Shown here one piece after another: positions 10,932 to 37,441 of a DNA stretch of 64,000 nt. Positions within the stretch are counted from its first letter, which is position 1. Every line of letters begins with the position of its first letter. A model generated the notes under the pieces. It did not search any database. It was not told where the DNA came from and saw only the letters and a list, made by a program, of their open reading frames with translations. Source of the stretch: Sheuella amnicola (lineage in GTDB: Bacteria; Pseudomonadota; Gammaproteobacteria; Burkholderiales; Burkholderiaceae_B). The stretch is taken from NCBI RefSeq assembly GCF_010499255.1, contig NZ_JAAGRN010000009.1:1-64000 (forward strand), in the 5' to 3' direction. Both the position numbers and the translations under genes were made by a program.

Positions 10932-11294
10932 AGCCAAATTATACATTATGGAAATTTAAAGTTGACATGTTTTGTTGAAATTTCTGTTTTTTCAAATTGA
11001 TTCTTGATTTATATCAAGGGGAATTTCTTTGTTTGATTCCACTTGGCACCGACTCTTTTCAACGATCAAAATTTAATAAACAACACAAAACAACCCTCTT
11101 AGTCAATAAATTGTGAGTGAACACAGTAAGTTCAAGACCCTATAAAATTCCGAGAAGATAGGAGAAATGTGAATCTTGTACGATCAGTGTAGATAATTTC
11201 CGCTTAAAACCTCAAAGATTATTACCAGTACACAGGTTTTATTAAGCGTCCTAACCCCCTGCGCTACGGACCTTTATACTCGGTCCCCACTCCA
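10932..11294. other. Intergenic region upstream of the copper cluster
   Basis: This AT-rich stretch has no gene. The leftward promoter of the copper cluster should lie at its left end, where a TATAAT is present on the minus strand near 10937-10942. I looked for a tmRNA body because a tmRNA-3'-end-like sequence follows, but no conserved 5' GGGG/TTCGAC region is present. The right end (about 11250-11294) resembles the sequence preceding the other attachment-like sites in this window (CCTAACCCCCTG and GGTCCCCACTCC). Confidence 0.4.
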
Positions 11295-11530
11295 CCACCA
11301 ATACCGCGAAGGGTCCGGATAATCTCCGGGCCCTTTTTTTTTTGGCTCAAAGCCCAGTGTTTACGGGGTTCTGGGCAAAAGGCTTGCGGATGAGTTCTGA
11401 CGAATAAATCAAAAAAAGAACGAATTTCACGCCGATTTTGTCTCTTTTCTCCGATTAGCTTGCGGATAGGCGCAGCCTCCCCTCTATATAAATCAATTCG
11501 TTACGAGGGGCATTTTGTAGACAATTATGG
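11295..11530 (+). repeat. Direct repeat A (about 235 bp) with attachment-like sequence and terminator
   Basis: This segment recurs at 12959-13192 with roughly 90 percent identity by eye. It begins with CCACCAATACCGCGAAGG, continues through a GC hairpin and T-run, then shared sequences such as CGGGGTTCTGGGCAAAAGGC and CGATTAGCTTGCGG, and ends near GACAATTATGG. The two copies bracket the Fic gene. The 5' part equals the sequence following attachment-like sites at 24.48 and 37.4 kb, suggesting the downstream flank of a tRNA/tmRNA target duplicated by site-specific insertion. Confidence 0.85.
11311..11342 (+). terminator. Rho-independent terminator inside repeat A
   Basis: GGGTCCGG and CCGGGCCC form an 8-bp stem (one G-T pair) around a 7-nt loop, followed by a run of more than seven T. 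The position directly after an ACCA-type RNA 3' end suggests it was originally the terminator of a tRNA or tmRNA gene. Confidence 0.8.
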
Positions 11531-11636
11531 GGAGCAATCCCAATTCATCCAACTCCATATGAAAGAGATTTTTCATAGTTGCAAGTCAAATTAAAGAATG
11601 GTTTAATTTGGTGGCTACAGCAAAAGCGAACTTTAA

Positions 11637-12788
11637 ATGAATCGAAACACTGGGACCTATGTCATCACCACGACTCTGAGTGAGTCAGTGCGGGCGTTCG
11701 TGCCCCACCCCTTGCCGCCCACGGGGCCAGCTCTTGCTTCTGGTGTCTATGCTGAGCTCAATCGACAAGCCGAATTGGCGCTCGCTCGCCTTGCCGGCGT
11801 ATCTGGCTTGGTTCCGTCGGTGGACTGGCTTCTATACAGTGCCATCCGCAAGGAAGCGTTGCTAACATCACAGATCGAAGGCACGCAAGCCACCCTTACC
11901 GATTTGTTCGATGAAGAGGCTGGTTTCAAAGTCAGCAACACCGAGGATGTAGAAGAGGTCACCAATTACTTACGGGCCTTCCGGTTGGTTCAAGGTCAAT
12001 TACGCGATAACCAAGGACTGCCCGTCAGCATACGATTACTTTGCGACGCTCACCGTCTGCTACTTGATGGCGTCAGAGGTGCCGGCAAACAGCCGGGAGA
12101 GTTGCGTCGTTCACAAAACTGGATTGGCGGTACGCGGCCTGGCAATGCCGCTTTTGTGCCACCACCTCCGGAGCATGTGCCTGTCTTACTGGCCGATATG
12201 GAGCATTTTATTCATGACGATGAGGCGACAGAGTTGCCGCCTATGGTCAAGGTAGCGCTTATCCATGCTCAGTTTGAGACTATCCATCCTTTTCTGGACG
12301 GCAATGGGCGCATTGGGCGCCTACTGATCGCAGCTTTGTTCGAACACTGGGGATTGCTAGCGGAACCCCTGATGTACCTCAGTGGTTATCTCAAGCAACA
12401 CCAGGCTGAGTACTATCGCCTCCTCTCCGCCATCCGTACCGAGGGTGACTGGGAAGCCTGGGTGACGTTCTTCCTGGAGGGCGTGTGCGTGGCAGCTGGG
12501 GATGCAGAGCGCAACATCATTGAAGTGGCCAGTCTGGTGGCGGCTGACCGCAAGCGCCTGCTTCAGTCACCCAAAGCAGGTCCAGCGAGTTACCGTCTCT
12601 TTGAAATGCTTCCAATGATGCCGCGCTTCACGATCGAGCGAGTGCGACAACAACTCGACACCACGTTTCCCACGGCAACAGCAGCAGTCAAGATGCTTGA
12701 GGATCTGGGCATCGTGACAGAAATGACTGGACAGAAAAAGAACAGAAGCTACAGTTACCAGGACTATGTGGAGCTGCTCTCACGCTGA
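11637..12788 (+). CDS. Fic family adenylyltransferase with N-terminal inhibitory helix and C-terminal winged helix
   Basis: A 383-residue cytoplasmic enzyme expected to transfer AMP or another nucleotide part to protein hydroxyls. The catalytic motif HPFLDGNGRIGR (about residues 217-228) is intact. The upstream helix TSQIEG (about 77-82) fits the (S/T)xxxE(G/N) inhibitory motif, placing it with class II Fic proteins that restrain themselves. A Fic N-terminal domain comes first, and the last ~70 residues resemble a winged helix (FTIERVRQQLDTTFPTATAAVKMLEDLGIV). It is flanked by the two 235-bp direct repeats and followed by a truncated small gene, so it looks like cargo of an inserted unit. The target protein is unknown. 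Confidence 0.9.
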   Translation: MNRNTGTYVITTTLSESVRAFVPHPLPPTGPALASGVYAELNRQAELALARLAGVSGLVPSVDWLLYSAIRKEALLTSQIEGTQATLTDLFDEEAGFKVSNTEDVEEVTNYLRAFRLVQGQLRDNQGLPVSIRLLCDAHRLLLDGVRGAGKQPGELRRSQNWIGGTRPGNAAFVPPPPEHVPVLLADMEHFIHDDEATELPPMVKVALIHAQFETIHPFLDGNGRIGRLLIAALFEHWGLLAEPLMYLSGYLKQHQAEYYRLLSAIRTEGDWEAWVTFFLEGVCVAAGDAERNIIEVASLVAADRKRLLQSPKAGPASYRLFEMLPMMPRFTIERVRQQLDTTFPTATAAVKMLEDLGIVTEMTGQKKNRSYSYQDYVELLSR

Positions 12789-12819
12789 CAAATCAAGATA
12801 AATCATGAAGGAGATATTC

Positions 12820-12900: not shown

Positions 12901-12936
12901 ATTTGCTGTTCAAGAATAAAAATTTGTACATCTGAA

Positions 12937-12964
12937 CGGGGGTTCAATTCCCCCCGGCCCACCA
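12937..12964 (+). other. tmRNA (ssrA) 3'-end-like sequence, probable attachment site
   Basis: Five G, the loop TTCAATT and a C-run form a T-arm, followed by GGCCCACCA. This matches the end of Burkholderiales tmRNAs as I remember them, except for one missing base in the acceptor strand. No tRNA or tmRNA body precedes it. Islands that integrate into ssrA carry a copy of the 3' end, so I read it as an attL/attR remnant. The downstream sequence continues as repeat B. Confidence 0.6.
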
Positions 12965-13192
12965 ATACCGCGAAGGATCCGGATAATCTCCGGGCCCTTT
13001 TTTTGGGCTAAAGGCCCGGTAAATACGGGGTTCTGGGCAAAAGGCTTGAGGATGAGGTCAGCCGGATAAATCAAAAAAAGAGCGAATTTCACGGCGATTT
13101 TGTCTCTTGTCTCCGATTAGCTTGCGGGTAGGCGCAGTCTCCCTTCTATATAAATCAATGAGTTACGAGGGGCATTTTGAAGACAATTATGG
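12959..13192 (+). repeat. Direct repeat B (about 235 bp), partner of 11295-11530
   Basis: This is the second copy of the repeat flanking the Fic gene. It shares the ACCAATACCGCGAAGG start, hairpin (12975-12997, with one mismatch introduced by GGATCCGG), T-run and the long downstream part to GACAATTATGG. The differences from copy A are scattered substitutions and one or two small indels, so the copies are not newly duplicated. Confidence 0.85.
12975..13004 (+). terminator. Terminator hairpin inside repeat B
   Basis: GGATCCGG, a 7-nt ATAATCT loop, then CCGGGCCC and a T7 run. One base change relative to copy A weakens the stem, but the structure remains plausible. Confidence 0.6.
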
Positions 13193-13258: not shown

Positions 13259-13274
13259 GCACAAAGGTCATTAC

Positions 13275-16200
13275 TTAAAACTGTAACCTCACCCCAACAT
13301 TGACTGCGCCTAGTGTCTGGCCACTACGTGCTTCACCAGACAGACCAGCATACGCATAAGCGTTATCCGAAAACTTCGCTGTGCCATATAAACCAGCTTG
13401 TACAAAGGTCGTACTCGCATTTGGCGTTGTGATGTTTGTACCCATGCCGCCAATTGATGCATTAAGCGTTGGATTTAACAATCCAGACGAATCAGCACCC
13501 ACTCCGACATAAGCACGATACGTATACTTTTCGGTCATTGGATTATTTGTTTTTGAGCCAACCGCCGCACCAATCACACCACGCACGCCATTGCCTGTAA
13601 ATGACTTCACGCTGAGTGCCGATGCTGCATCACCTTCATTGACACCTGACTGTGAAACGATCTGCCATGTCACACGAGCATAAGGCGTAATGCGAACCTC
13701 TTCAGTGTCGATTGGACGACTTAATCCCAAGCTGAGCAAGGCATCGTTACCAGAGACAGACTTGCTCTTGAACCCATTACTCAGGCCTGTCGCATCACCA
13801 CGAGACAGATCACTTGAGTTCAGACCAATGCTGGCCATGCCATCCACCACGAACTCTTGTACTGGCATCTTTCCATAAGCAAAGATGGATCCTTGCTGAA
13901 TCGTGCCTGAGCCATAAGTTGGGTTCAATGTGGTGCTGGAAAGAGCTAAGCCGCCGCCAATCTTCATGCCATTTGCGGTGTAGAAGTCTGAACCAAACAC
14001 CAGTTGGTACAAGTTACTGTTCCAACCGCCAGAGTTACTGTCGCTGTTACGGTTGCCGTACTGATAGGCCAAATCACCCCAGACATTGCCGTTGGAGAAT
14101 GTCTTTGCATCCGCATTGGGATTGACGCTTGGGTTCGTGCTAACCGCTGAAATAGCCACGCCACCAGATAAGGCCGTATTTGTTGTTGCCATTAACCCCG
14201 TGTTACCAGTGGGATTGGAGTTTGGTAAACCAATACCCATCGTGTCGCCAAGACGTGTCATAACGGCTTGTTGTACACGCTGTGTAGTCTGAGCGATTGC
14301 GGCGACAGCAGCTGGGTAGACTTCACCAGATAGGCTTTGTGCATAACCCGACAAAGCTGCTGCAGGTTTGGTTGAACCTGCATAAAGCAACTGATCTTGT
14401 GCTGCGGTCGATGTGCCATTCTGTGCAGCAACGACCATTTTATCTAAAGCACTACCAACCGATTGTGCGTTCTTATTGCCTGAAGCAGCAGCAATCGTTG
14501 TTTTATAGGATGTTGGGATCAGTGCCAGATCAACGCTATTGCTTCCAGCCATGTTGTAGAAAGGCAAAAATTGCGTACCTGAGGTCAACTCCGCTGGTTG
14601 TGTGACTGTTGAAAACTTGCCTGAAATGCCGCCATCGGCCGTCACGATGCGAAATAAGTCACCAAGGACTGGTGTGTATGGTGTGGTTCCGTAACCTGAT
14701 TCATTAGCTGTAAATAGATTAGAAAGCCGTGGCGTCAGTGTCGCACCTGAATTGATGACAAACAGACCACCACTCACGTTCAAGTTCGAGTAGTAACCTG
14801 TCGCACCAACCGGTGTAGCATCTGTAGCTTTAATCGTACCTGCAATATCTTGCTGATAAATTGAACCATTATTCATGGTGACTGTATTATTTGCCGCCAG
14901 ATATCCAGGCGAATTACCAGGCTTGAGAATACCTGCAACAGTCACAGTACCATTAATCGTTCCAGCTCCCATCAATGTACCGTTATTTTGAACGTAAACG
15001 TTACCTGAACCTGTCGGACTAGAACCTTGAATAGACAATGTGCCAGACTGAACAGTGGTACCACCACTATATGTATTAGAGCCATTCATCACAGTTGTAC
15101 CAGTGCCGGTAAATGTCATGCCACCAGACCCTGAAAATATACCTGACAATGTCGCAACTCCGGAACTCGGAGACTGAATTGTGCCGCCAGCAGAATTGAC
15201 TGTAAAAGATTGTGAAGATGAATTGCCTGTAACGAGAGATAATGTTCCACCGTTAAAAACAGGATTTGCTGAAACACCTATGCTCGAAAGAGAAACAATA
15301 TTGTTAGGATCAATATTGCCAACTGTTGAGCCGCCACTGCCACTGCCCCCGCCCCCACTATTACTTCCACCTGTGACCACCAAATCCCAAAGTGTTCCAG
15401 AACTATTTACAAGTGTCCAAGAATAACCACCTGTATATGTTCCACTCACACCACTTAAGTTCGAAAGAGTCAGCCCCTGCAATACTGATGTATAAGTATT
15501 CGCAGCAATTGTTGAGGTTGAATTAATACTAAATGTAGTTGTTGTTGCCCCAGGACTTGCAGCACTTAGCTTGCCATAAGATGAAGTGCTATTAACGATA
15601 ATTTTATAATTAGTTGGCAAATTACCAGTGAACGTTAATGCTCCATTCACGTTGCCTAATCCCTGACTGTTGCTTAGAGTAGTTATCGTACCTGCATTGG
15701 TAATACCCTTTGTCGAGCCAGTGATTGAACCAGTATTCGTAATGGTAGTAATAGTTGATCCAGATTGATTACTAACACCATAACTAGAACCTTGAATTAA
15801 ACCCGCATTAGCAATCGTTCCAATCGTTGCAGCTCTTGTATTGTTATAGTTATCTATAGCTATATTGTTATCAGAAATAATTGATCCACTGGCTTGATTG
15901 TTTAGAGTTGTGATTGTTCCACCATAGTTATTAATAGCAGAATTATTTCCCGTATTTTTTATTAATGACGTGTTTGTTAATGTAGTGATAGTCGGTTGAA
16001 ACCAACCCAAATATCCATACGTATCTGTCAACGTAATCGCACTTCCTGCAGACGTTGCCTTTAACGTGCCATTATTAGTTAATTGAGAAATTGTCGAATT
16101 ATTGACCCACAGACCAGCAGAGCCTGACCCTGTTCCCTGTATGGTGCCGCCGTTTACTAGCGTACCTAAACTTCTGTTTTGACTCGTACCAAGAGCCGCA

Positions 16201-16466
16201 CCACCTGAAGTATTTTTATCTAATAATGCACCGCTATCAATTGTGAAACCGCTTGTTGACCAATTTCCATTATTTGTACAAGTATCAGTACTTGCAACGA
16301 TCGTACTTCCTGCCGAGCCGAGTTGCGTGCAATCGATCGCATAAGTGTTTTGATGATTTAAAACACCTACAAAAATCATAATAATCAGTAGCTTTATATT
16401 AAATTCACATTTGTTTTTAAACTTTAAGTTTATAAACTTCAAATTGAAGACTGCGCAGTAATTCAT
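13275..16466 (-). CDS. Large autotransporter (type Va secretion) with PATR repeats
   Basis: A 1063-residue surface protein. The N-terminus has an extended signal region with hydrophobic LLIIMIFVGVL ending at NTYA (about residue 43). The passenger is rich in Gly, Ser, Thr and Asn with many short beta-helix-type repeats (TNTGSITG, ITTLSNS). It includes one passenger-associated transport repeat (NGSNTYSGGTTVQSGTL) about residue 455 and an SGGGGSGSGG linker about residue 370. The last ~280 residues form the outer membrane barrel, ending in NVGVRLQF with the terminal Phe needed for BAM recognition. The function is likely adhesion or autoaggregation. It is divergent from the two-component system at 16794, which may regulate it. 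Confidence 0.88.
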   Translation of the reverse strand: MNYCAVFNLKFINLKFKNKCEFNIKLLIIMIFVGVLNHQNTYAIDCTQLGSAGSTIVASTDTCTNNGNWSTSGFTIDSGALLDKNTSGGAALGTSQNRSLGTLVNGGTIQGTGSGSAGLWVNNSTISQLTNNGTLKATSAGSAITLTDTYGYLGWFQPTITTLTNTSLIKNTGNNSAINNYGGTITTLNNQASGSIISDNNIAIDNYNNTRAATIGTIANAGLIQGSSYGVSNQSGSTITTITNTGSITGSTKGITNAGTITTLSNSQGLGNVNGALTFTGNLPTNYKIIVNSTSSYGKLSAASPGATTTTFSINSTSTIAANTYTSVLQGLTLSNLSGVSGTYTGGYSWTLVNSSGTLWDLVVTGGSNSGGGGSGSGGSTVGNIDPNNIVSLSSIGVSANPVFNGGTLSLVTGNSSSQSFTVNSAGGTIQSPSSGVATLSGIFSGSGGMTFTGTGTTVMNGSNTYSGGTTVQSGTLSIQGSSPTGSGNVYVQNNGTLMGAGTINGTVTVAGILKPGNSPGYLAANNTVTMNNGSIYQQDIAGTIKATDATPVGATGYYSNLNVSGGLFVINSGATLTPRLSNLFTANESGYGTTPYTPVLGDLFRIVTADGGISGKFSTVTQPAELTSGTQFLPFYNMAGSNSVDLALIPTSYKTTIAAASGNKNAQSVGSALDKMVVAAQNGTSTAAQDQLLYAGSTKPAAALSGYAQSLSGEVYPAAVAAIAQTTQRVQQAVMTRLGDTMGIGLPNSNPTGNTGLMATTNTALSGGVAISAVSTNPSVNPNADAKTFSNGNVWGDLAYQYGNRNSDSNSGGWNSNLYQLVFGSDFYTANGMKIGGGLALSSTTLNPTYGSGTIQQGSIFAYGKMPVQEFVVDGMASIGLNSSDLSRGDATGLSNGFKSKSVSGNDALLSLGLSRPIDTEEVRITPYARVTWQIVSQSGVNEGDAASALSVKSFTGNGVRGVIGAAVGSKTNNPMTEKYTYRAYVGVGADSSGLLNPTLNASIGGMGTNITTPNASTTFVQAGLYGTAKFSDNAYAYAGLSGEARSGQTLGAVNVGVRLQF

Positions 16467-16793
16467 GCCAAGTACCTACGGATTATTAGTCCGAAAATAC
16501 TAAGTTAAATTCACATCATTTACCTGTTTGACTTTCTACGAATTAACTTCTAAATGATACGAAATATTGCAAGCTGATTTTTTTTACACTGAGATTAAAG
16601 CCAATCCGGTAAATTCAAAGGCCTATCTCATCTACACCGAATTCAGTTAGCAATAAATAAGTTTCAGTTGCTTACCTCCCTATTTATGCGTGCTGCGCCA
16701 TCACTGGCCTGCATTACTCATCTGACAACATGAAAGTCGATCTAAATATCTTTGATAAAAATAGTAAATTTTTGAATTTTAGGACTTAGGATT
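16467..16793. promoter_or_regulatory. AT-rich divergent regulatory region between autotransporter and sensor kinase
   Basis: 327 bp with no gene, separating two outward-facing transcription units. On the autotransporter side there is a short inverted repeat (CGGA, 7 nt, TCCG) around 16477-16491. On the kinase side TTAGGA precedes the TTG start. Promoters for both genes must lie here, but I could not define their boxes with confidence. Confidence 0.45.
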
Positions 16794-18761
16794 TTGAACT
16801 TTAGTACCTTAAACCTTTACTTGATCGCCTCCGGAATGAGCCTTGGGCTCTTCGCTGTCATCTTCATATACGCAAAATTTCAAACAAATTCAAACATTAT
16901 TCGCAGCTTTGGATACAGCGTACTTTCTTTAGGAACTGGATTTTTTATATCTGGATTTGGGCACGCTCTTCCTATCTGGGCAACGCTTATTGGTACAAAC
17001 ATAATACTGACCATTTCAAGCGCATTTTTTCACCGGGGCTTATATAAATTTTTATATAACAAGCGCCCATCTCACTTTTGTTGGATACTTGCCATCGGCA
17101 CAGCACCTGGATTTTGGTACTGGGGAATAGTTGATCCCAATGGGCCATTCAGAAGCGCACTTTTTTCATTCGCGGTTGCAGTGATTAATGGATTAAATAC
17201 TCAACTACTTTTTAGAATCGCAAAAAACAATTTTAAAAACTTTGCTGCATGGATTCTTTTTTTGTTATTCGCTACAGCCACCGTCTGGATGCTTGTTCGA
17301 GGCATATATATGCTGCAACTCGATACTGCACCAAGTATTAGAGCAAGCAACCCAACCGATTGGAAATCATTACTTGGCTATATCATCCTAGTGTCCCTGA
17401 TGACAGTCTGTGTCATGTGGATGGAATCCACACTCCGCGATGGATATCAACAAACATTCTTTCAAAAAAATAAAGAAAATTTCAAATTCATTCAACACTA
17501 CGGACAAAAAGTATTATTGCTCTGGAGTTGTGTCTCAGTAATGATTTTTGGAATCGTATGCTTGCTTGGTATATCTTATGGAAATTTTTATGAGGTAGAA
17601 AGAAACAGATGGTTAAATTCAACAGAAATCATCAACGAATCTTTCGTTATCACAACAAATCAGATTACGAATAGCATTATTTTTGATAAAAATAATAATA
17701 AGAGCGTTGCTTCATCAGCAGAATCAAAAATTACAGATGTATTCACTCACTTTTATCGCGGAATAGCAGAATTAGAAAATATATCAGTTGTACTGATTGA
17801 TAAAACTAACAGAAGCATTAAAGCGATTGCTCCCGATAACGTAAAAAATATAGACTTAAAACTAATAGAACCTCTATGGGCAGCATTAAACAATGCATCT
17901 CAAGGTTTATTTGAATCTATAGACTCCGATACAGGTTTAAAACAATTATTTGCATACACAAGCATAGATAACACCTCGCTCGTAATCATGACGAGTCTAT
18001 CCAACCAAGGACTGTCGAACACAGTTCATTTAAGAATGTTTTGGTTTGCTATCGTCTCGATTGTGATTGTTTTATTTACTGTTTTTATGGCCTTATTACT
18101 GACTGCTGAAATCAAGCGACGAGAAGATCAAATGCAGTTTATGGCAATGCTGAATCATGAACTTAAAACACCAATGTCAGTCATCCGAATTGCGACAGAT
18201 ACAAATACCTTTCCTGATAAATTAAAAATTGCCATCAGTCGTGCGATTGATGATATGAGTTCTGTCATCGATCGCTGTATGCAATCAGACAAACTACAAC
18301 ACGGAAATATTAAATTATCACTCTCCTATCTGAGCATAGACGAAATAATTGATACCGGCATTATGAATAGCTCAGCACCAACCAGGATTGAAGCTGATGT
18401 TGAAAAAAAACTGACCGTTAAAACTGACATTCAATTACTAAACGTTATCCTATCTAATTTGATAGAAAACGCGCTGAAATATAGTCCAGCAAATGAAAAA
18501 ATAAAGATGACTGCCCAACAGTTTCCAAAAAATGGAAGTTTGGGAGTTTTAATTAATGTTTCGAATTCACCTGGAACATCAGGCATTCCGAATTCAAAAA
18601 GGGTATTTGAAAAATTCTATCGTGATGCACATTCTCAAAGTAAAACAGGCTCTGGATTAGGTTTGTTTATTGCGAAGGGATTTTCAAAAAAAATAAAAGG
18701 TGACCTTAGAATGCACGCAACCAATCATCTCATTACTTTCGAACTATGGATTCCACTTTAA
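16794..18761 (+). CDS. Membrane sensor histidine kinase with multi-helix N-terminal sensor
   Basis: A 655-residue hybrid-free kinase starting at TTG with AGGA upstream. The first ~220 residues hold seven or so hydrophobic helices, resembling integral membrane sensor modules. Another helix near residue 250, a ~160-residue periplasmic domain and a final helix near residue 425 follow. The dimerisation domain has H455 in NHELKTPMSV. The catalytic domain shows LSNLIENALKYSP (N box), RVFEKFYRD (F box) and GSGLGLFIAK (G2 box). The gene overlaps the response regulator by 16 bp, so they form a pair. AT-rich codon use contrasts with the methionine genes downstream. Confidence 0.9.
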   Translation: MNFSTLNLYLIASGMSLGLFAVIFIYAKFQTNSNIIRSFGYSVLSLGTGFFISGFGHALPIWATLIGTNIILTISSAFFHRGLYKFLYNKRPSHFCWILAIGTAPGFWYWGIVDPNGPFRSALFSFAVAVINGLNTQLLFRIAKNNFKNFAAWILFLLFATATVWMLVRGIYMLQLDTAPSIRASNPTDWKSLLGYIILVSLMTVCVMWMESTLRDGYQQTFFQKNKENFKFIQHYGQKVLLLWSCVSVMIFGIVCLLGISYGNFYEVERNRWLNSTEIINESFVITTNQITNSIIFDKNNNKSVASSAESKITDVFTHFYRGIAELENISVVLIDKTNRSIKAIAPDNVKNIDLKLIEPLWAALNNASQGLFESIDSDTGLKQLFAYTSIDNTSLVIMTSLSNQGLSNTVHLRMFWFAIVSIVIVLFTVFMALLLTAEIKRREDQMQFMAMLNHELKTPMSVIRIATDTNTFPDKLKIAISRAIDDMSSVIDRCMQSDKLQHGNIKLSLSYLSIDEIIDTGIMNSSAPTRIEADVEKKLTVKTDIQLLNVILSNLIENALKYSPANEKIKMTAQQFPKNGSLGVLINVSNSPGTSGIPNSKRVFEKFYRDAHSQSKTGSGLGLFIAKGFSKKIKGDLRMHATNHLITFELWIPL

Positions 18762-19510: not shown

Positions 19511-19654
19511 TTATCGCGATTAGATCTAACTGTTCCCCATGATTGAATACCTATTTTTCAGATCAAAACGAAACAACTTCAAATGAACTAATTAATTTTT
19601 AATTAATTTGGCAATTAGGAATTGTTATGAATAGTGGTTACTCCTCAGCCGATA

Positions 19655-19692
19655 TCAACTGGCCTAACCCCTTGTACTAACAAAAACTCTAT
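19655..19692 (+). other. tmRNA/tRNA 3'-end-like attachment site
   Basis: CCTAACCCCTTG near 19660 and GTCCCCACATCTCCACCA (about 19677-19694) resemble the region before the other attachment-like sites, and the latter resembles tmRNA 3' ends. Unlike the other copies, it is not followed by AATACCGCGAAGG. No RNA body is present. I read it as another insertion boundary next to the excisionase-like gene at 19952. Confidence 0.4.
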
Positions 19693-19742
19693 ATAGTCCC
19701 CACATCTCCACCATATTTTGGTCCGCTAGTTATTGCTAATTC

Positions 19743-19800
19743 ATGCGGGTTCATGAGGGTTCATAAGACCCTCATGAACCCGCATTTTCATTGTTTTTTA
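19743..19800 (+). terminator. Perfect 18-bp hairpin followed by T-rich sequence
   Basis: ATGCGGGTTCATGAGGGT and its exact reverse complement (19743-19760 and 19768-19785) flank a 7-nt loop. The tail TTTCATTGTTTTTT follows. It may end transcription from the REC-AraC gene or from the small RNA whose end was duplicated here. The left arm contains GGGTTCATGAGGGTTCAT, a short internal direct repeat. Confidence 0.65.
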
Positions 19801-21632: not shown

Positions 21633-21690
21633 CTGAGAATTCCTTTTGGTAAGTGTATGGAAATTGAATGAATTCAAATGAGCCGAACAA

Positions 21691-22674: not shown

Positions 22675-22723
22675 TACGATTTAATTTTTGAATATTTAAG
22701 AAAAAAAAAAGCCAATTTCTGTT

Positions 22724-23498: not shown

Positions 23499-23503
23499 TT
23501 TAA

Positions 23504-25069: not shown

Positions 25070-25104
25070 ATATTCTGATCACCGGGTTACTGGAGTCCAC
25101 TGAT

Positions 25105-26205: not shown

Positions 26206-26214
26206 GGCGCAAAG

Positions 26215-29454: not shown

Positions 29455-29473
29455 CTTATCCTGGGAGCATCCC

Positions 29474-29680
29474 ATGACTGTAGAACGTTATATCCGTATA
29501 TTCGCCGGTTTATTCATCTTGATTTCGCTGGCGCTGGGTGTCGAGCAAAGTCCTTTGTTTGTCAGCAAGTGGGCCTTGGCCTTCACCGCCTTTGTCGGTC
29601 TGAATCTGTTCCAGTTTGGTTTTACGAATGCTTGTCCGCTGGGATTTTTTCTGAGAAAGCTAGGCGTCCCCGATGCTTAA
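29474..29680 (+). CDS. DUF2892 small membrane protein (YgaP C-terminal-like)
   Basis: 68 residues with two hydrophobic helices. TVERYIRIFAGLFILISLAL and FVGLNLFQFGFTNACPLGFFLRKLG match DUF2892, the membrane part of the YgaP sulfurtransferase, including the conserved CP. In YgaP this part is fused to rhodanese; here the two halves sit at opposite ends of an RND module. AGGATCC-like GGGAGCATCCC precedes the ATG. A role in passing sulfur or SCN- at the membrane is inferred. Confidence 0.85.
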   Translation: MTVERYIRIFAGLFILISLALGVEQSPLFVSKWALAFTAFVGLNLFQFGFTNACPLGFFLRKLGVPDA

Positions 29681-29781
29681 AATGCAAGCTGCAATAGTAG
29701 CCGTTGCTGCTGACTTCAAAACATCGGCATTGTCTAATCTTGCCCCGCCGCATCATCAGGTTCGGGCGTAAGGAGTAAGTT

Positions 29782-31176
29782 TTGAATCGTGAAAAAATAA
29801 CCATCAGTCGTATCGCGACCGTTGTTTTAACGGTGACTCTGGTGCTCTCATCCAAAATGAGTGCCGCAATCGATTTGAAGCAATGTTGGCAGCTTGCGTT
29901 GACACACGATCCCGTTTACGCGGCAGCACGAGCCAACTATCGCGCCATGATGGAGAAAATGCCTCAGGCGCGATCATCCTTGCTTCCCCGGGTTTCTGCA
30001 TCCGCGGCGGTTGGCTATCTGGATAGTCGCGCCAATACGGCGTTCACTCAGGTTTATCAAAACTCCAATACAGCCTGGGCGCTTACTTTATCTCAACCGA
30101 TTTTCAACTGGTCGGCCTGGCAATCTTACGAGCAATCAAAACTTGTTGTTGCAAGCGCAGAAATTCAATTGCAAATTTCCTATCAAGATCTGGTTCTCCG
30201 TGTCGGGCAAGCTTATTTCGAGGTCCTTGCTGCCCAAGATGCCCTAATGGCCCTTCAAGCCGAGCAGCGAGCCATCGCCGAGCAGCTCGCTTCTGCCAAG
30301 CGGCGATTCGATATGGGTAAAGCAACCATCACTGATACGCATGAATCGCAATCTCGCTACGATCTTGCCAGTGCAAACATTATCGCTGCCCAAAACACAG
30401 TGCAGAATACGAAAGATGTACTCAGTAGAATCATTGGTCGTCCGGTCGATGATCTGTCGGTGCTCCCATATAGCGTCACGTTACCATCACCTGTTCCAAA
30501 TGAATTGAAAAAATGGTCTGAACAATCGCAAACGGCCAATTTAGAAATCATCCGATCCCATTTTCAAACCCGCATTGCCGAAGCCGATGTTGACATTGCA
30601 AAAGGCGGACACTACCCAACCGTTAGTGCGTTCGCATCAACATCGAGCAATACGCTGGGCAATATGTATGTGCAACCCTACTATAACGGCCGTACGGTGG
30701 ACAACGTTGTGGGTGTCATGGTGAATGTACCGTTGTATTCGGGCGGAATGACGAGTTCGCGTGTCTCTGAAAAAAGTGCGCTTCACGAAAAATCGGTATT
30801 CGATCTTGAGGCAGCGAAACGTCTTGCATTGCAACAATCCCAACAGTATTTCAATGGAGTGACGGCCGGACTTGCTCGCATCAAAGGCCTGGAGGCAAGT
30901 GAAAAGTCCAGCAATGCATCTTTACAAGCCAATCGTACAGGTTATGAAGTTGGCGTAAGGATCAATCTTGATGTTCTGAATGCGCAGCAGCAGTTGTATA
31001 CCACCATGCGAGAGCTTGCGCTCGCACGCTATAACACCGTGATTATGGGGCTTCGTTTAAGAGCAAATAGTGGAATTTTGTCTGAAGATGATCTGATCAC
31101 AATCAATGCATTATTACGCGCCTCAGGTACTCCCGGCACAAGTCTCATAGACACAGAAAGGACTTTGGCAAAATGA
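29782..31176 (+). CDS. TolC-family outer membrane channel
   Basis: 464 residues starting at TTG, supported by AAGGAG 6 bp upstream. The signal peptide ends near KMSA. The body has TolC-type repeats: LKQCWQLALTHDPVYAAARANYRA and VGQAYFEVLAAQDALMALQAEQ in the first half, GVMVNVPLYSGGMTSSRV in the second, and VGVRINLDVLNAQQQLYTT near the end. It lacks a lipobox, so it is closer to TolC/AprF than to NodT. It should complete the tripartite pump with the RND genes upstream, 101 bp after DUF2892. Confidence 0.9.
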   Translation: MNREKITISRIATVVLTVTLVLSSKMSAAIDLKQCWQLALTHDPVYAAARANYRAMMEKMPQARSSLLPRVSASAAVGYLDSRANTAFTQVYQNSNTAWALTLSQPIFNWSAWQSYEQSKLVVASAEIQLQISYQDLVLRVGQAYFEVLAAQDALMALQAEQRAIAEQLASAKRRFDMGKATITDTHESQSRYDLASANIIAAQNTVQNTKDVLSRIIGRPVDDLSVLPYSVTLPSPVPNELKKWSEQSQTANLEIIRSHFQTRIAEADVDIAKGGHYPTVSAFASTSSNTLGNMYVQPYYNGRTVDNVVGVMVNVPLYSGGMTSSRVSEKSALHEKSVFDLEAAKRLALQQSQQYFNGVTAGLARIKGLEASEKSSNASLQANRTGYEVGVRINLDVLNAQQQLYTTMRELALARYNTVIMGLRLRANSGILSEDDLITINALLRASGTPGTSLIDTERTLAK

Positions 31177-31419
31177 TGACAGAGACATTGTGCATTCCAG
31201 ACTTAAACCATTTACGGTTAATCTGTAAGCGATGGCTACAAACCACTTAAGGTTTAATTCAATCCCGACCGCTTATTACTGCTATGTAAAATCAATCTGT
31301 AATGATCCAGCATTTTCTGCAAAGGTCGGGCTGCAAATTTAAATGACGCGTTGGTTTTCGCGGGAATTTTAAGGGTAAGTGCCTGATGTGGCCTTAGAAG
31401 ATAGTAAAAATGTATCCTG
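31177..31419. other. Non-coding stretch before LysR remnant
   Basis: No gene or terminator was recognised. The sequence just before 31420 is out of frame with the LysR fragment and may be its decayed upstream part. Confidence 0.35.
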
Positions 31420-31728
31420 ATGCGCGAACCATTGCTTGTGGCCCATCCTCCCGGTCATAGGTTTGAAAAAAGGCGCCACGTTCGATTAATCGATTTGAGC
31501 AAGGGAAGCTTCATCCTTCATAGCTCGCCGCTGGGGAGTGGAATATTCGATAGTCTGATCGCAGCCTGTCAGACCTCTGGCTTCACCCCCAATGTAATCT
31601 ATCGAGAGATCGAAACCCTACCGATGTTACTTATCGTCAAACGTGGTCTAGAGATTGCCTGTGCCCCAGCCAGTTTGGCAAAACAAAATCTAACGGGCCT
31701 TCCATCGCTTGTACCTCTGAAAACATAG
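31420..31728 (+). pseudogene. C-terminal fragment of a LysR-type regulator
   Basis: About 102 codons covering only the second half of a LysR effector domain: REPLLVAHPPGHRFEKRRHV, IDLSKGSFILHSSPLGSGIFDSLIAACQTSGFTPNVI, and LLIVKRGLEIACAPASLA. There is no HTH, and stops interrupt the frame upstream. It is probably the relic of a regulator for one of the flanking efflux operons. Confidence 0.65.
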
Positions 31729-31932
31729 ACATTCAAACACATATGAATTTAATTACCAGAAAACAGGTCAAATTCACTAAAACGACTCGAATGTTCATTG
31801 ATCTTGTCTAGAAAAGTGTAGGAAGCATTAAACCTGTCACTTTGGAAAATTAAGCTGATATGATCAAAGTCAAGTCAATTAGCCTCGATTTGCTTCATAC
31901 TCCCCTCCACATGTATAACTGGCCCCCCTCAC
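31729..31932. promoter_or_regulatory. Leader region of the second efflux operon
   Basis: About 200 bp upstream of the adaptor gene. It must hold the operon promoter, but I found no convincing boxes. CCCCCCTCACATG gives little ribosome-binding signal. Confidence 0.3.
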
Positions 31933-33090
31933 ATGAAGCTCAAGAAACCGAACATAAGCAAGCGCATGCTTCTTTTGCTGCTGGGCGTAATTTCATTTGT
32001 ACTGCTTTTCGTTTATGTCCTGTTCCGTTCAGGGCCAATGGCATCCATCGCCGTAACCGTGACACAAGTTGAAAACAAAGCGATTTCTCCTGCTATTTTC
32101 GGTATCGGAACTGTCGAATCGCGTCGCACCTACAAAATCGGCCCGACCGCTGCAGGACGCTTGTTGAAGATTGATGTGGATGTGGGTGACAAAGTCGAAG
32201 CAGGACAAGTTATCGGGGAAATGGATCCTGTCGATCTGTATGACAAGATACGGGCGCAGGCCGCCGCACTCAAGCAGAGTGAAGCACAACGTCTGGATGC
32301 ACAAACTCGCCAAAGCTATGCAAAAACACAGGCAAGACGTTATGAACAATTGTTTGCCGCAAAATCGACCAGCGAAGAGAATTACACAACCAAGCAGCAT
32401 GAATACCGTTTATCCGAAGCAAATTTAAACGCCGCCGAACAACAATATGTTCGTGTCCGATCGGATTATGAAGCGCTGATTGCACAGCGCCAAAACTTGA
32501 AACTGATTGCTCCTGTCGACGGTATCATCTCGATCAGAAAGGCCGACCCCGGCACAACGCTCGTTGCCGGTCAAGCTGCGGTGGAAATGATCGATCCAAA
32601 AACGATCTGGGTAAATGCGAGATTCGATCAAGTTAATTCGAAGGGATTAAAAACAGGACTGCCGGCGAGAGTGGTGCTTCGTTCGGATACAAATCGCTTG
32701 CTTGAGGGACACGTTACGAGGATTGAACCCATGGCCGATGCCATAACCGAAGAGATGTCGGCGAAAATATCGTTCGACAAGCCGCTGACCACGCTTCCTC
32801 CTGTCGGAGAACTTGCCGAAATCACGGTGATGCTCCCTGAACAATCTTCTACACTCGTCGTACCCAACGCAAGCATCAAACGCCTCGGCGGTAAGTCCGG
32901 CGTGTGGGAAATCAAAAATGGCAATCTCAACTTCGCCTCTGTCAAGTTTGGTGCCGCAGACTTGAGTGGTACGGTACAAGTTCTTGAGGGCCTGAACACC
33001 AAATCACAAATCGTTGTATACAGCGAACAGGCTTTAACCCCAAAAAGTCGCATTCGAGTCGTTGATCATATCTCGGGCACAAAAAAATGA
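31933..33090 (+). CDS. HlyD-type membrane fusion protein of an ABC exporter
   Basis: 385 residues anchored by one N-terminal helix (MLLLLLGVISFVLLFVYVLF). The lipoyl halves (GRLLKIDVDVGDKVEAGQVI and APVDGIISIRKADPGTTLVAGQ) flank a long coiled-coil hairpin (about residues 100-185). The ATGA overlap with the permease gene indicates coupling. With the permease and ATPase this is the adaptor of a MacAB or DevBCA-type exporter. Confidence 0.9.
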   Translation: MKLKKPNISKRMLLLLLGVISFVLLFVYVLFRSGPMASIAVTVTQVENKAISPAIFGIGTVESRRTYKIGPTAAGRLLKIDVDVGDKVEAGQVIGEMDPVDLYDKIRAQAAALKQSEAQRLDAQTRQSYAKTQARRYEQLFAAKSTSEENYTTKQHEYRLSEANLNAAEQQYVRVRSDYEALIAQRQNLKLIAPVDGIISIRKADPGTTLVAGQAAVEMIDPKTIWVNARFDQVNSKGLKTGLPARVVLRSDTNRLLEGHVTRIEPMADAITEEMSAKISFDKPLTTLPPVGELAEITVMLPEQSSTLVVPNASIKRLGGKSGVWEIKNGNLNFASVKFGAADLSGTVQVLEGLNTKSQIVVYSEQALTPKSRIRVVDHISGTKK

Positions 33091-34289
33091 TCAGTCTTGC
33101 CGGACGCGATATTTTGCATGGATGGGGCAAATTCGTTTTTACTGGATTGGGTCTTGGGCTACTGATTGGCGTCACGTTAACCATGGCTGGGGTCTATCGA
33201 GGCATGGTGGATGACGCAAAGGCCCTACTCGATAACAGTGGCGCCGATTTATGGGTAGTTCAGAAAGATACGCTCGGCCCTTATGCAGAACCATCAAGCG
33301 TATACGATGATCATTGGCGGAGCATTCGCACGATTCAGGGCGTTTCGGATGCAACGAATGTGACGTACCTGACCATGCAGATACGATATGCCGAGAGGGA
33401 TGTACGCGCCATGGTAAGTGGGGTTGTTATGGGAGATGTTGGTGCACCCGGATGGCCTCCTTATTTGATTGATGGAAGGCAAATCACACGCGGACACTAC
33501 GAGGCCGTTGCCGACGTTGCGGCGGGAATCGGTTTAGGTGAAAAAATCAAAATCAGGCGCAACACTTACACCATTGTCGGTTTGACTCGCCGTATGATTT
33601 CTTCAAGCGGTGACCCGATGATTTTCATCCCGATCAAAGACGCACAACAGGCTCAATTCTTGAAGGATAACGATGCCATTCTCGAACAGCGTCGACGGAC
33701 GGAACAAAACCCTGCCTTAAACAGACCGGGATTGCCTGATTTACTGGATGCAGTCATCGCAACACAATCTGCAAATCCATTTGTCAATGCCGTTCTGATC
33801 AGAGTCAAGCCCGGATATTCGACACAGGAAGTCGCGGATTCGATCCGACGCTGGCATCGGCTACAAGTATATGACCGTGACCAGATGGAAGAGATTCTGG
33901 TGAGCAAACTGATCGCGACATCGGCTAAACAGATTGGAATGTTCCTGGCTATCTTGGCCATTGTCAGCGCCGCAATTGTCGCGTTCATTATCTACACATT
34001 GACAATGGGGAAAATTCGTGAAATCGCAGTCCTGAAGCTGATCGGCACCAAGAATCGGACAATTGCATCAATGATCGTCCAGCAGGCTCTTGGACTAGGC
34101 ATCATTGGATTTGTAGTCGGCAAGGTCTCAGCCACATTCTGGGCTCCCTTTTTTCCAAAATATGTCTTACTCGAACAAGGCGATGCGGTCAGAGGCTTCA
34201 TAGCAATCGCCCTGATTTGTATTCTGGCCAGTATTGTTGCCATTTGGGCCGCGCTCAAAGTCGACCCAGCCGAAGCGATTGGTGGCTGA
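33087..34289 (+). CDS. FtsX-like ABC exporter permease (MacB/DevC type)
   Basis: 400 residues. The N-terminal helix (FTGLGLGLLIGVTLTMAGVY), a periplasmic MacB-like core domain of about 230 residues, and three C-terminal helices (FLAILAIVSAAIVAFIIYTL and following) make the four-helix FtsX topology. IREIAVLKLIGTKNRTIASMIVQQ is the coupling region to the ATPase. Unlike MacB, the ATPase is a separate gene, as in DevBCA. Substrates of such exporters include lipids, peptides and lipoproteins; none is indicated here. Confidence 0.9.
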   Translation: MISLAGRDILHGWGKFVFTGLGLGLLIGVTLTMAGVYRGMVDDAKALLDNSGADLWVVQKDTLGPYAEPSSVYDDHWRSIRTIQGVSDATNVTYLTMQIRYAERDVRAMVSGVVMGDVGAPGWPPYLIDGRQITRGHYEAVADVAAGIGLGEKIKIRRNTYTIVGLTRRMISSSGDPMIFIPIKDAQQAQFLKDNDAILEQRRRTEQNPALNRPGLPDLLDAVIATQSANPFVNAVLIRVKPGYSTQEVADSIRRWHRLQVYDRDQMEEILVSKLIATSAKQIGMFLAILAIVSAAIVAFIIYTLTMGKIREIAVLKLIGTKNRTIASMIVQQALGLGIIGFVVGKVSATFWAPFFPKYVLLEQGDAVRGFIAIALICILASIVAIWAALKVDPAEAIGG

Positions 34290-34290
34290 C

Positions 34291-35001
34291 ATGTATACAG
34301 CCGGTATTCGCATTGAAAACCTTAGAAAACGATTCGGCACCGGTGATATGGCATTTGATGCACTTAAAAAAGTCAATATGATTATTGCTCCGGGCGAAGT
34401 CGTCGGACTGATCGGACCTTCGGGTTCCGGCAAAAGTACACTTCTGAAATGTCTGGGAGCAGTCATCGAGCCCACGGAAGGTCGCATGTCAGTGGGAGAC
34501 GAGGTCATTTATGACAATGAATGGAAGATACCCGATCTGAGAGCACTGAGAAGAGACAAAATCGGATTTATATTTCAAGCGCCGTACTTGATCCCTTTTC
34601 TTGATGTAACTGATAATGTTGCTTTGCTGCCCATGCTTGCGGGTAGGTCGAATGATGTTTCAAGGCAAATGGCTATTGAACTGCTTGAAGCACTTGATAT
34701 CGGTCATCGGGCAAAAGCGATGCCTGCACAACTATCAGGTGGAGAACAGCAACGCGTTTCGATCGCTAGAGCGCTTGTCAACCGACCTCCTGTGATTTTG
34801 GCTGATGAGCCGACCGCACCGCTTGATGGTGCGCGTGCCCTGACAGTCATTCGAATGCTGAATCAATTGGCGCAGCAGTTCGAAACCGCGATTATCGTCG
34901 TCACGCATGATGAAAAGATCATCCCAACATTCAAACGGATTTATCACATACGCGAAGGGGTGACACACGAGGAAGTGGGTGAAGGACGGTCTTTCGAATG
35001 A
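34291..35001 (+). CDS. ABC exporter ATPase (MacB/LolD type)
   Basis: 236 residues from the ATG at 34291, one base after the permease stop. An in-frame upstream ATG lies inside the permease gene and is rejected. Walker [10 protein letters not shown], signature [15 protein letters not shown], Walker [13 protein letters not shown] and the switch His in VVTHDEK are all intact. Typical of the LolD/MacB/FtsE branch. It overlaps the channel gene by 4 bp. Confidence 0.93.
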
Positions 35002-36485
35002 AAAAACTCCTTGCTTCGCTATGCCTGATCGCGCTGACGGCTTGCACCGTTGGCCCGGACTTTACGCGCCCTGCTGATCCGAGCGCCGAGTCATATACGA
35101 TCAAGAATTTCCCTGGTAAAACAACTTCTTCCGAATTCACTTTTGGACAAGAGCAACGCTTTGATCGCAACAATGTCCTGGAACAACAATGGTGGCGAAC
35201 CTTCGGATCATCCAAACTGGACGAAGTAATTGCTCGTGCCATGCAAGCCAATCCCACACTTCTGGCTGCACAATCAACCCTCAAACAAGCTCAAGAGTTG
35301 TACAGCGCGAGAGCAGGATCGACCCTTTACCCGCAACTCAATGCAACACTCAGCGATCAACGGGTGCAACTAAATGGAGCAACACAGGGTTTATCCACCA
35401 GCCCGAATGTCTTCAATTTGTACAATGCTACTGTTGGGGTGACATACAACTTCGACATTTTCGGCGGGAATCGCCGAATCCTCGAAGCCCTTGCTTCACG
35501 CGCCGACTATCAGCAATATCAGTTGTTGGCGGCAAAGCTGACACTCGCAGCAAACATCTCAACGACGGCAATCACTCAAGCCAAGCTGGCGGGTCAGATA
35601 AAGGCCAATGAAACCAGTCTGAAGGCGCAAGAGGATCAGCTCATCGTTGCGCGCAATCGACTCAGGCTTGGTCAAGCATCCGAGGACGATGTCCTGGCGC
35701 TGACAACAGAGGCCGAACAAACGCGTGCTGGCATTCCTGTCCTCCGTACAAGATATGAACAAACCAGGCACTTATTGTCGACCCTGTCCGGTCAAGCTCC
35801 AGGACAATCGGCATTGCCCACTTTTGTCATGTCAGATTTCACTCTACCGACAGACCTTCCTCTGCTGATCCCGTCTGAGCTCGTGCGACAACGCCCGGAC
35901 ATACAGGCATCCGAAGCACTGATGCGTGCATCGAATGCAGAATATGGTGCCGCGATCGCTAAAATGTATCCTCAACTCAATCTGAGTGCGAGCATCGGAT
36001 CTCTTGCGCTTGCACCTGCCTCACTCTTCGGAACAGGAGCTCTTTTCTGGCAAGTTCTTGGTCAACTGTCCCAACCTGTATTCAATCCAGGACTTCCTGC
36101 AGAAAGTCGTGCCGCTTTAGCCGCCTTCGAAGCAACCGCTTCGAACTATCAAATGACCGTTCTGGATGCGTTACGCAATGTCGCCGATGTATTGAAAGCG
36201 CTGGAAAACGATGCCATGACTCTTAAATCGCAATCAACGGCAAACTCTGCGGCGAGAGATCTGGCAAAGTCCGTCGAGCGTCAATACACGCTGGGCAGTG
36301 CAAGTTATTTACAGTTACTGATTGCCCAACTTCAGGATCAAAGGACACGTTTTGAACTGATAGCCGCTCAAGCGCAGCGATTAATCGATACCGTCGCATT
36401 ATATCAAGCGCTGGGCGGAGCCATGCTGACTTCAACAGTATCAACACCCAGACAAACAACAGACTCCGGCTCGGCGAACAAATAA
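34998..36485 (+). CDS. NodT-family outer membrane factor lipoprotein
   Basis: 495 residues with the lipobox LTACTVGPDF (Cys about residue 16), where CTVGPD is the NodT/CusC hallmark. It shows WWRTFGSSKLDEVIARAMQANPTLLAAQSTLKQAQ, FDIFGGNRRILEALASRADYQQ and LVRQRPDIQASEALMRASNA, each standard for the family. It is the fourth gene of the exporter operon and gives it a complete path to the outside. The ATGA overlap with the ATPase shows coupling. Confidence 0.92.
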   Translation: MKKLLASLCLIALTACTVGPDFTRPADPSAESYTIKNFPGKTTSSEFTFGQEQRFDRNNVLEQQWWRTFGSSKLDEVIARAMQANPTLLAAQSTLKQAQELYSARAGSTLYPQLNATLSDQRVQLNGATQGLSTSPNVFNLYNATVGVTYNFDIFGGNRRILEALASRADYQQYQLLAAKLTLAANISTTAITQAKLAGQIKANETSLKAQEDQLIVARNRLRLGQASEDDVLALTTEAEQTRAGIPVLRTRYEQTRHLLSTLSGQAPGQSALPTFVMSDFTLPTDLPLLIPSELVRQRPDIQASEALMRASNAEYGAAIAKMYPQLNLSASIGSLALAPASLFGTGALFWQVLGQLSQPVFNPGLPAESRAALAAFEATASNYQMTVLDALRNVADVLKALENDAMTLKSQSTANSAARDLAKSVERQYTLGSASYLQLLIAQLQDQRTRFELIAAQAQRLIDTVALYQALGGAMLTSTVSTPRQTTDSGSANK

Positions 36486-36781
36486 TTTGAAATAGTGATT
36501 TGATCTGATAAACAAGTGCCGCAAACTGGGAAATGTCAGATCAAGCCGCGATCACTACAATTTATGTAAGGCTGCTGTTTATAACTGCAATACACTTAAA
36601 AGAGAATTAATAAATTTTGAGCTCATTTGTGAGTACGAGGTAGTGCCATGCACTCGACTCATGTCAACTGTGATCACTCCAAATTCTCCTGCTCATTTTT
36701 GAGAAGATCATTCAATCACATGGGTCAATCTTGGGTGAAAAATATTGCCTAAGATGGGTCAGCTTTGAGCGATCGCCAACA
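36486..36781. other. Intergenic region with IS-end-like repeats
   Basis: No gene. ATGGGTCA occurs at about 36719 and 36751. TTTGAGCGATCGCCAACA near 36765-36782 also occurs, with one change, at about 24613-24629 (TTTGAGCGATCACCAACA). Such repeats resemble the ends of IS21-like elements. Both sit just outside the metR duplicates, so an IS may have helped move the block. Confidence 0.4.
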
Positions 36782-37332
36782 GATGTCAAATAAAAATTCC
36801 AGTTCGGTGGAATTGGCACGCCTTGCGGTTACGAAATCGACCTGCTAGTCACTCTCGATCCGCTTTATAAATCTGGTTTGAAGTTCGAACCTGTGTTTGA
36901 ATACCAGCAAGTATTTGTTGTGGGCAAAAGCCATGCGTTGGCTTCGGCTGCCCATGTAAAACCCCAGCAGCTGTCCCGGTAAGTAAAGATCCTCTATCCC
37001 GTGGATATTCAGCGCCTAGACATCTATAACCAATTCCTGTTGCCAACCGGGACCACCGCAAGCACCATAAGACCATCGAAACGACCGATATCATGCTGCA
37101 GATGGTGGCCAGCGGTCGCAGTGTGGCCGCCCTGCTCCGTTGGCTTGTCGAAGAATACGCAGTCAAGATGGATGTGGTACCTGTGCGGCTGGGCGCACGC
37201 GATATAGACAATCAGATATTTCTGGGAGCACGGGAAGCGGATATAACTATAGATTACGTACGCGCGTTCATCGAACTGGTTCGTCAGCCTAATGGTGAGA
37301 CAGGAAAAGTCAACCAAGCCCTCACCAACTAA
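36782..37332 (+). pseudogene. metR pseudogene (3' half duplicate)
   Basis: Homologous to the last 552 bp of the intact metR at 23504. It contains TAA at the second codon after GTCAAA (CAA to TAA), another in-frame TAA where metR reads QEV, and a 1-bp deletion near 37047 that shifts the frame. No HTH part is present. It marks the right arm of direct repeat C. Confidence 0.9.
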
Positions 37333-37413
37333 CAATAATTATCAACGACCCTAAGCCCTTGAACTACTGATCTTTTAAATCGGTCCTCATCCCACCACCA
37401 ATACCGCGAAGGG
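36782..37413 (+). repeat. Direct repeat C, copy 2
   Basis: Second copy of 23873-24505, ending with the shared attachment-like sequence CCACCACCAATACCGCGAAGGG. Here it is followed by the GGGTCCGG hairpin found in repeats A and B, unlike copy 1. Confidence 0.9.
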
Positions 37414-37441
37414 TCCGGATAATCTCTGGGCCCTTTTTTTT
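37411..37441 (+). terminator. Terminator after attachment-like site
   Basis: GGGTCC pairs with GGGCCC-type right arm (GGGTCCGGATAATCTCTGGG then CCC) and is followed by T8. It is the same hairpin as at 11311 with one change. It also sits tail to tail with the leftward gene at 37584. Confidence 0.7.

Follow-up and report, generated by a model that had tools for sequence, protein, structure and literature searches.

A tandem array of five probable tmRNA-gene island junctions in Sheuella amnicola

Integrons hold cargo units in tandem, separated by similar sites and shared between strains. Tandem arrangements are also described downstream of ssrA, the gene for transfer-messenger RNA (tmRNA): in Dehalococcoides, ssrA islands are associated with serine recombinases, and an integration module was counted in 16 of 31 islands in the excerpted text of that report (PMC3146451). 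Phage AcaML1 is reported, in the portions of its description available here, to be integrated in ssrA with a 10-bp repeat (PMC3826726). The present study concerns a stretch of Sheuella amnicola DNA (positions 1 to 64,000 of contig C9, hereafter the window; the genome comprises 36 contigs and 3.18 Mb), in which five similar sites on one strand separate segments of different cargo. The analysis indicates that a hotspot for tandem ssrA islands is also found in the host genus, with a different integrase candidate, of the AcaML1 type. The genus is presumably beta-proteobacterial. Same-genus genomes, contigs and loci are cited below by our own numbers (G, C and L, respectively).

Five sites of two kinds

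When the window was read directly, all five sites named in the initial annotation (11.29, 12.94, 19.68, 24.48 and 37.39 kb; sites 1 to 5) were found in place, each on the + strand. A genome-wide search for CCACCAATACCGCGAAGG allowing up to 2 mismatches gave four matches, all exact and all inside the window (11295, 12959, 24487 and 37395), and the reversed pattern, used as a control, had 0 matches genome-wide. CCACCA alone is frequent in the window (39 occurrences on the + strand and 18 on the - strand), which would favor a coincidence of CCACCA-like strings with unrelated terminators, but when ACCGC is required within 3 nt after it the counts drop to 4 and 0, respectively. This coincidence has a negligible probability in our view, being rejected by the reversed-pattern control and by the E-values of the relatives-only model described below, with the least force at 19.68 kb. 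All five are real and far beyond chance, that at 19.68 kb being the weakest.

The site at 12.94 kb (12936..12971, + strand) is a copy of a tmRNA 3' end, with T-arm and CCACCA, followed by ATACCGC. It aligns with the 3' end of the genome's own ssrA at 97% over 37 nt, with one gap and reaching ATACCGC, and it is the sole Rfam match up to E=1 between 11.0 and 38.0 kb (tmRNA, E=2.9e-5), which bears out the tmRNA-like T-arm described at the outset. A tRNA origin of this T-arm was rejected, as the T-arms of the six tRNA-like loci compared from the same genome (L002-L006 and L008) mismatch it and the ssrA locus (L001) matches. The remaining four sites have CCACCA in common with ssrA, and three of these four also have ATACCGC. 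They are not tmRNA ends; they carry a different 66-nt arm ending in CCACCA, so the earlier description of the sites as degenerate RNA 3' ends holds at 12.94 kb and fails at 11.29, 19.68, 24.48 and 37.39 kb. The idea that all five sites are degenerate tRNA or tmRNA genes was likewise rejected: ARAGORN and Rfam at gathering thresholds found no tmRNA or tRNA gene in the window, and only the 12.94-kb site scores as tmRNA.

The 66-nt arm, with consensus GnnGTTATCAGCCGCCCTAACCCCTTGAACTACnAAnTTTTTnACTCGGTCCCCACCCCACCACCA, is common to the four window sites and to sites in relatives. On the + strand of the window it occupies 11235..11300 at site 1 (ending CCACCACCA), 19648..19713 at site 3 (the most diverged copy, ending CTCCACCA), 24427..24492 at site 4 and 37335..37400 at site 5, the last two being identical. 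A first model, R1, was built from 11 arms. Because three of these came from the window, a control model, R2, was built from the arms of relatives only; of its eight copies, three had originally been found by similarity to site 1 and five by the core pattern. In 187 kb of the genome's own DNA, R2 recovered the arms at 24430 and 37338 (E=7.6e-13 each), 11238 (E=1.6e-10) and, weakly, 19650 (E=0.0039), and nothing beyond these four up to E=1. With R1 and up to 150 candidates scored per genome, 24 arm copies were found in 14 of 32 same-genus genomes (E<=0.001), the weakest being one in G012 at 5e-4. Searches of a wider scope returned little: the left arm had no match among plasmids; an 18-nt core (up to 1 mismatch) occurred in four of 150 relatives besides the genome itself, as one mismatched match each, and the two of these inspected (L014 and L016) are not ssrA; the exact core occurred in eight stretches of a wider collection of genome contigs, all from other organisms, the two inspected (L018 and L022) looking coding and unrelated; and two exact patterns had 0 matches each among viral contigs.

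The ssrA 3' end as target, and its changing terminators

The intact ssrA of the genome (C6:178285-178646) lies on another contig than the window. It shares its 3' end and ATACCGC with the 12.94-kb site, and its terminator is different. A longer common flank is found in a sister genome. A 421-bp query around site 1 matches G022 directly downstream of its ssrA, with 92% identity over 257 bp for 11284-11540, and a second copy lies about 1.2 kb further on in G022. The alignment to ssrA suggested in the initial annotation is therefore positive for the 3' end at 12.94 kb and, over a longer flank, for the ssrA of G022 and not for the genome's own. Tandem sites behind ssrA, as detected by the core pattern, are found in G022, G005, G023, G008 and G019. 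In G015, G004 and G016 (L079, L077 and L081, respectively) the contig stops at the ssrA 3' end or no more than about 300 bp from it, which is what assembly breaks at repeated heads would produce.

A comparison of G012 and G022 provides an empty and a filled target. In the 400 bp up to and including the end of ssrA, the two genomes have 98% identity. Both have the same type of downstream sequence, or head (type B, 91% identical over 47 nt), and they also share long colinear blocks (72-74%). Between the ssrA CCACCA and the type-B head, G022 has about 5.1 kb more than G012; this insert starts with a type-C head, contains a further site and methionine genes, and ends in the 66-nt arm. Past the head, G022 has another stretch of about 1.7 kb that is unaligned to G012. 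The pair reveals a precise insertion at CCACCA, and the inserted DNA also makes up one of the window segments; a filled and an empty ssrA are available for this methionine segment and not for the window array itself. The segments could instead have spread by homologous recombination between repeated heads or gene ends, with no active site-specific recombinase, given that the 3' end of a LysR gene is duplicated together with the arm at sites 4 and 5, that sites 1 and 2 repeat a head of about 230 bp, and that such copies can exchange. This is quite improbable, however, as the boundary of the G022 insertion is at CCACCA, where arm and tmRNA share few bases, and recombinase genes recur beside the sites.

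Across the genus, the heads that follow the CCACCA of ssrA are of types A, B, C and D, and heads mostly begin NTACCGC or AACCGC. In the window, type C is found at three sites, a fifth type at 24.48 kb and another at 19.68 kb. The type-C head of site 1 (11301..11540) begins with ATACCGCGAAGG, followed by a terminator hairpin at 11308-11336 and about 200 bp of conserved head, and was recognized by its identity to the G022 ssrA flank. The second (12965..13192), recognized by repeat alignment and folding, has a terminator hairpin weakened by a mismatch, and 12998-13192 is 89% identical to 11336-11530; the third, at site 5 (37401..37441), has its hairpin at 37408-37436. At site 4 the type-E head (24493..24535) also begins with ATACCGCGAAGG and continues into a different terminator, with a stem of about 12 bp and a T-run. 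The head of site 3 features a strong hairpin (19743..19785), with 19708-19800 folding at -40.5 kcal/mol (z -7.5). All these heads are on the + strand. Hairpins and T-rich stretches thus follow all five window cores (terminators had been noted from the sequence at first for four of them), although the one at 12.94 kb is weak (-14.0 kcal/mol, with 7 of 200 shuffles as good, versus -21.0 kcal/mol and 0 of 200 at site 1).

A strict test, requiring a hairpin and a T-run within 100 nt after CCACCA, was passed by 19 of 19 ssrA genes and by 19 of 26 array sites, while the control windows passed in 4 of 639 and 0 of 639 cases. The array sites consist of the 24 arm sites, the 12.94-kb site and one further site in G022; the ssrA genes are 19 of the 21 over the cut-off, leaving out G015, whose contig ends at CCACCA, and G026, which was not included. 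Among the seven sites that failed are three in the window (19.68, 12.94 and 37.39 kb), all of which still fold into hairpins, three beside a recombinase module described below, and the weak site of G012. The 19 ssrA genes have at least three clearly different terminator sequences. Because these terminators are unlike in sequence but alike in placement, each island seems to bring a new one, and the islands appear to provide the tmRNA gene with a new terminator that replaces the old.

Taken together, these observations are best accounted for by islands that target the CCACCA of ssrA and that are stacked in one direction and partly decayed in the window, an account to which we give a probability of roughly 0.8. 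An island would enter, presumably as a circle, by site-specific recombination at the CCACCA of ssrA. Its head, with the terminator, would then become the new 3' flank and terminator of ssrA, and its left arm, usually the 66-nt arm and sometimes a copy of the tmRNA T-arm, would be joined to the head of the previous island. Repeated entry would produce a one-directional tandem array in which the newest island adjoins ssrA. For the 66-nt-arm type, the integrase would be a large serine recombinase acting with a DUF2924 protein and a small partner, as in AcaML1, with most islands having no integrase or remnants only, and the window array would be an old, integrase-free and partly decayed member. 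The tmRNA 3' end or core repeat that marks ssrA islands is found at the window junctions, and it is highly probable that the five sites are junctions of islands of the tmRNA-gene type. If the terminators do function in the cell as predicted, the islands suggest a direct test of how tmRNA output is kept constant despite a swapped 3' flank.

Cargo, candidate integrases and the place of the array

The annotation of the segments supports the view that the sites separate functionally different cargo. Between sites 1 and 2 lies a gene for a Fic-domain protein (11637..12788, + strand; Pfam Fic_N and Fic). The next segment (13275..19510) encodes an autotransporter (13275-16466, - strand), a histidine kinase (16794-18761, + strand) and a response regulator (18746-19510, + strand). 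Between sites 3 and 4, a methionine block (20607..24424) encodes a methionine-synthase-type protein with a Meth_synt_2 domain, a MesX-family protein (PF08908, E 8e-181), an FMN reductase and a LysR regulator; we take it to resemble the operon for an oxygen-dependent, folate-independent methionine synthase, carried here by an island. The last segment (24740..36485, + strand) holds genes for a rhodanese, exporters of the RND and MacB/HlyD types, and outer-membrane factors. After it, the 3' portion of the LysR gene recurs in decayed form (36782..37335, + strand; 91-97% identical to 23873-24447), with no + strand open reading frame of at least 100 amino acids. This duplicate carries the arm as well, which suggests that two methionine islands once stood in tandem or that a duplication occurred across sites 4 and 5.

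Much of this cargo is also found behind ssrA in relatives. Linked to ssrA are homologues of a copper block (G006 and G008), of the Fic gene (88% in G023, 72% in G008), of the methionine block (86-87%, inside the 5.1-kb insert of G022) and of the exporter stretch 25195-31094 (72-73%, downstream of ssrA in G017). A homologue of the autotransporter lies in G012:C9 near the weak arm and a methionine block, and not on the ssrA contig of G012. When C9 was compared by BLAST with 255 kb of ssrA-linked DNA from 11 relatives, 15,910 of 37,400 bases (42%) were covered from 1 to 37.4 kb versus 4,327 of 108,610 bases (4%) beyond the last site, from 37.4 to 146 kb; this contrast is tempered by the fact that the 37.4-kb boundary was picked after the sites were known and that, for G006 and G008, the ssrA-linked DNA may extend past the islands into flanking sequence. 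The strain comparison proposed earlier covered the fetched ssrA-linked stretches: in these, window segments are present singly or in other combinations, and none of the 11 relatives has all of them, which suggests that the segments may move separately.

The initial annotation had reported neither a tmRNA body nor an integrase in the window and had supposed that integrases were lost or elsewhere. Both statements agree with the present searches. Besides the negative ARAGORN and Rfam results, no recombinase of PF00589 or PF07508 and no gene of the candidate trio, comprising a DUF2924 protein, a large serine recombinase and a small partner protein, was found in the window; intact trios occur in relatives only, and the genome itself has a remnant of the small-protein gene at C6:182236-182659, 3.6 kb downstream of its ssrA. 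In G022:C22, G015 and G013, a module on the reverse strand, encoding small protein, large serine recombinase and DUF2924 protein, immediately adjoins an arm site; in G015 the last of these genes is cut by the contig end. One intact and one decayed trio lie upstream of arms in G027:C235, and remnants are present on site-bearing contigs of G005, G007, G016, G020 and G024. In total, 9 of the 14 genomes with sites have a trio, intact or decayed, on a site-bearing contig. According to a hand-compiled table, the small third gene opposes the array direction in 12 of 12 places, several of which are copies of one event. Of 11 PF07508 recombinases in 8 of 32 genomes, three have arm sites no more than 4 kb away on their contigs; the single match in the genome under study is of a distant type. 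The module order known from AcaML1 (DUF2924 protein, large serine recombinase, small subunit) is found in G027, G022 and G013 and not in the window. The recombinase of G027 has 63% identity to its AcaML1 counterpart (49% for G022) and the two partners have 37% each, and the AcaML1 record (JX507079) opens with CCACCATTTA and a terminator hairpin and ends with CCACCATTTA. The trio is thus the likely, and the best, integrase candidate for the 66-nt-arm type. Beyond the trio of G022:C22 (L143 12490-14671), the genes include one for an AAA_24 ATPase.

The junction at 12.94 kb may have another origin. In G028:C40 (L157 1-345), a similar tmRNA T-arm junction lies just downstream of the end of a C-terminal tyrosine-integrase fragment (24.5 bits, under the family cut-off), and only these two T-arm junctions are present among the compared loci. 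Junctions of this type may therefore be the work of a tyrosine integrase, which would be a second type acting on the same target. An extension of this idea is that a tyrosine integrase makes all junctions, as in classic tRNA and tmRNA islands, and that the serine trio is a passenger. Despite the G028 fragment and four PF00589 matches in the genome itself, this is unlikely. Beyond two genus-wide types of tyrosine recombinase, which we take to be XerC/XerD-like, none looks common; the arm-bearing genomes G007, G010, G013 and G016 have two PF00589 matches each. The arm type, moreover, shares little beyond CCACCA with ssrA, as does the 10-bp repeat of AcaML1.

Several points weigh against the account of stacked ssrA islands. 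The right core flank of the genome's own ssrA is C3:32384 onward, 40.7 kb of C6 after ssrA has no further arm, and the core genes of C9 are absent from the 405 kb (G022) and 450 kb (G014) of contig downstream of ssrA, so that core synteny suggests a place for the window array other than beside its own ssrA. In the R1 search (up to 150 candidates per genome), 18 of 32 same-genus genomes had no arm match. Types A and B of the terminators are possibly related, and the trio-side sites of G022, G015 and G013 have no terminator by the strict test. As to the integrase, the right end of AcaML1 is unmatched to the 66-nt arm, with nothing significant when R1 was run on the AcaML1 ends, and the link between arm and integrase therefore rests on co-location; the trio-side site of G022 is on another contig than ssrA, G031 has a 97%-identical recombinase but no arm match, and recombinases of the trio type are common in phages.

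The position of the array also bears on whether the window represents a second, ssrA-independent hotspot, whose junctions recombine mutually or with another chromosomal target. Beyond the synteny of the C9 core genes, whose stretch at 124-144 kb matches core DNA on non-ssrA contigs in G022, G014 and G005, this reading draws on sites off the ssrA contig in G022:C22 and, weakly, in G012:C9, and on the contig ends. The first 127 bp of C9 (window 1-127) overlap exactly with a repeat contig of 3 kb, putatively insertion sequence (IS)-like, that is also common to the starts of C10 and C13. The far end of this repeat contig joins the start of C6, its only other readable join, and thus the C6 end away from the ssrA array; the downstream end of C6 has a repeat in common with C7. 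Neither contig-end overlaps nor core synteny gave a join from the downstream end of C6 to C9 among the readable contigs, some small contigs being unreadable so that joins may be missed. The earlier proposal that islands had inserted repeatedly at one target is partly supported: the junctions are of the ssrA type, and core synteny suggests that the array lies away from the genome's own ssrA. Even so, the window heads equal the ssrA flank, the 12.94-kb site has a tmRNA T-arm, and G022, G023, G008, G017 and G006 carry window cargo behind ssrA; a move of an ssrA array driven by IS elements or homology would, furthermore, look alike. A second hotspot is a serious minority possibility, and it is possible that the window array was moved or is separate from ssrA. 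Stacked ssrA islands remain our preferred account.

A more far-reaching version of that account is that ssrA is a cassette platform of the genus, with integrase-free modules of about 1-13 kb (arm, core, replacement terminator and cargo) shuffled in trans by an AcaML1-type serine recombinase. We offer this tentatively and consider it rather doubtful. If true, the tmRNA gene would obtain a new terminator with each acquisition, much as an integron feeds one promoter. Arrays of this kind are also a possible record of the order in which cargo for metal resistance, methionine synthesis, efflux and Fic proteins arrived.

Comparison with known island systems

A search of open-licence papers, with queries that did not include the genus name, found no paper on the window array or the genus, and the combination of exchange at CCACCA and a 66-nt arm with replaced terminators and small modules that lack an integrase was not found in these papers. 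The array resembles integrons in its tandem units and similar sites and differs in that its segments reach 13 kb and contain genes in both orientations. Tycheposons and additive flexible genomic islands are likewise flexible islands, at tRNA genes, and differ, in the available text, in their tRNA targets, in the tyrosine recombinase xerD named for the tycheposon and in their hosts (PMC10872708).

Closer are the islands of Dehalococcoides, which lie in tandem downstream of ssrA with direct repeats of the ssrA 3' end and mixed cargo; next to the left repeat, a serine recombinase (DsiB) module is encoded on the reverse strand, and a further motif, unmatched to ssrA, lies upstream of the repeats (PMC3146451, in the sections at hand). 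They differ in that insertion takes place in the T-loop, the repeat measures 20 bp and the module has six genes, DsiB and DsiA among them; those sections make no mention of terminator replacement (PMC3146451). Neither the six-gene module nor the T-loop insertion is found here; exchange is at the terminal CCACCA, with a 66-nt arm and, in relatives, a three-gene module of the AcaML1 type. AcaML1 has the same three recombinase genes in the same order near its left end, is reported to be integrated in ssrA and starts with CCACCA and a hairpin, and it differs in being a 59-kb inducible prophage with a right end unlike the 66-nt arm (PMC3826726, as far as its available text extends). To the extent covered by these partial sources, tandem ssrA islands are thus already known from Dehalococcoides, and the recombinase trio at ssrA from AcaML1.

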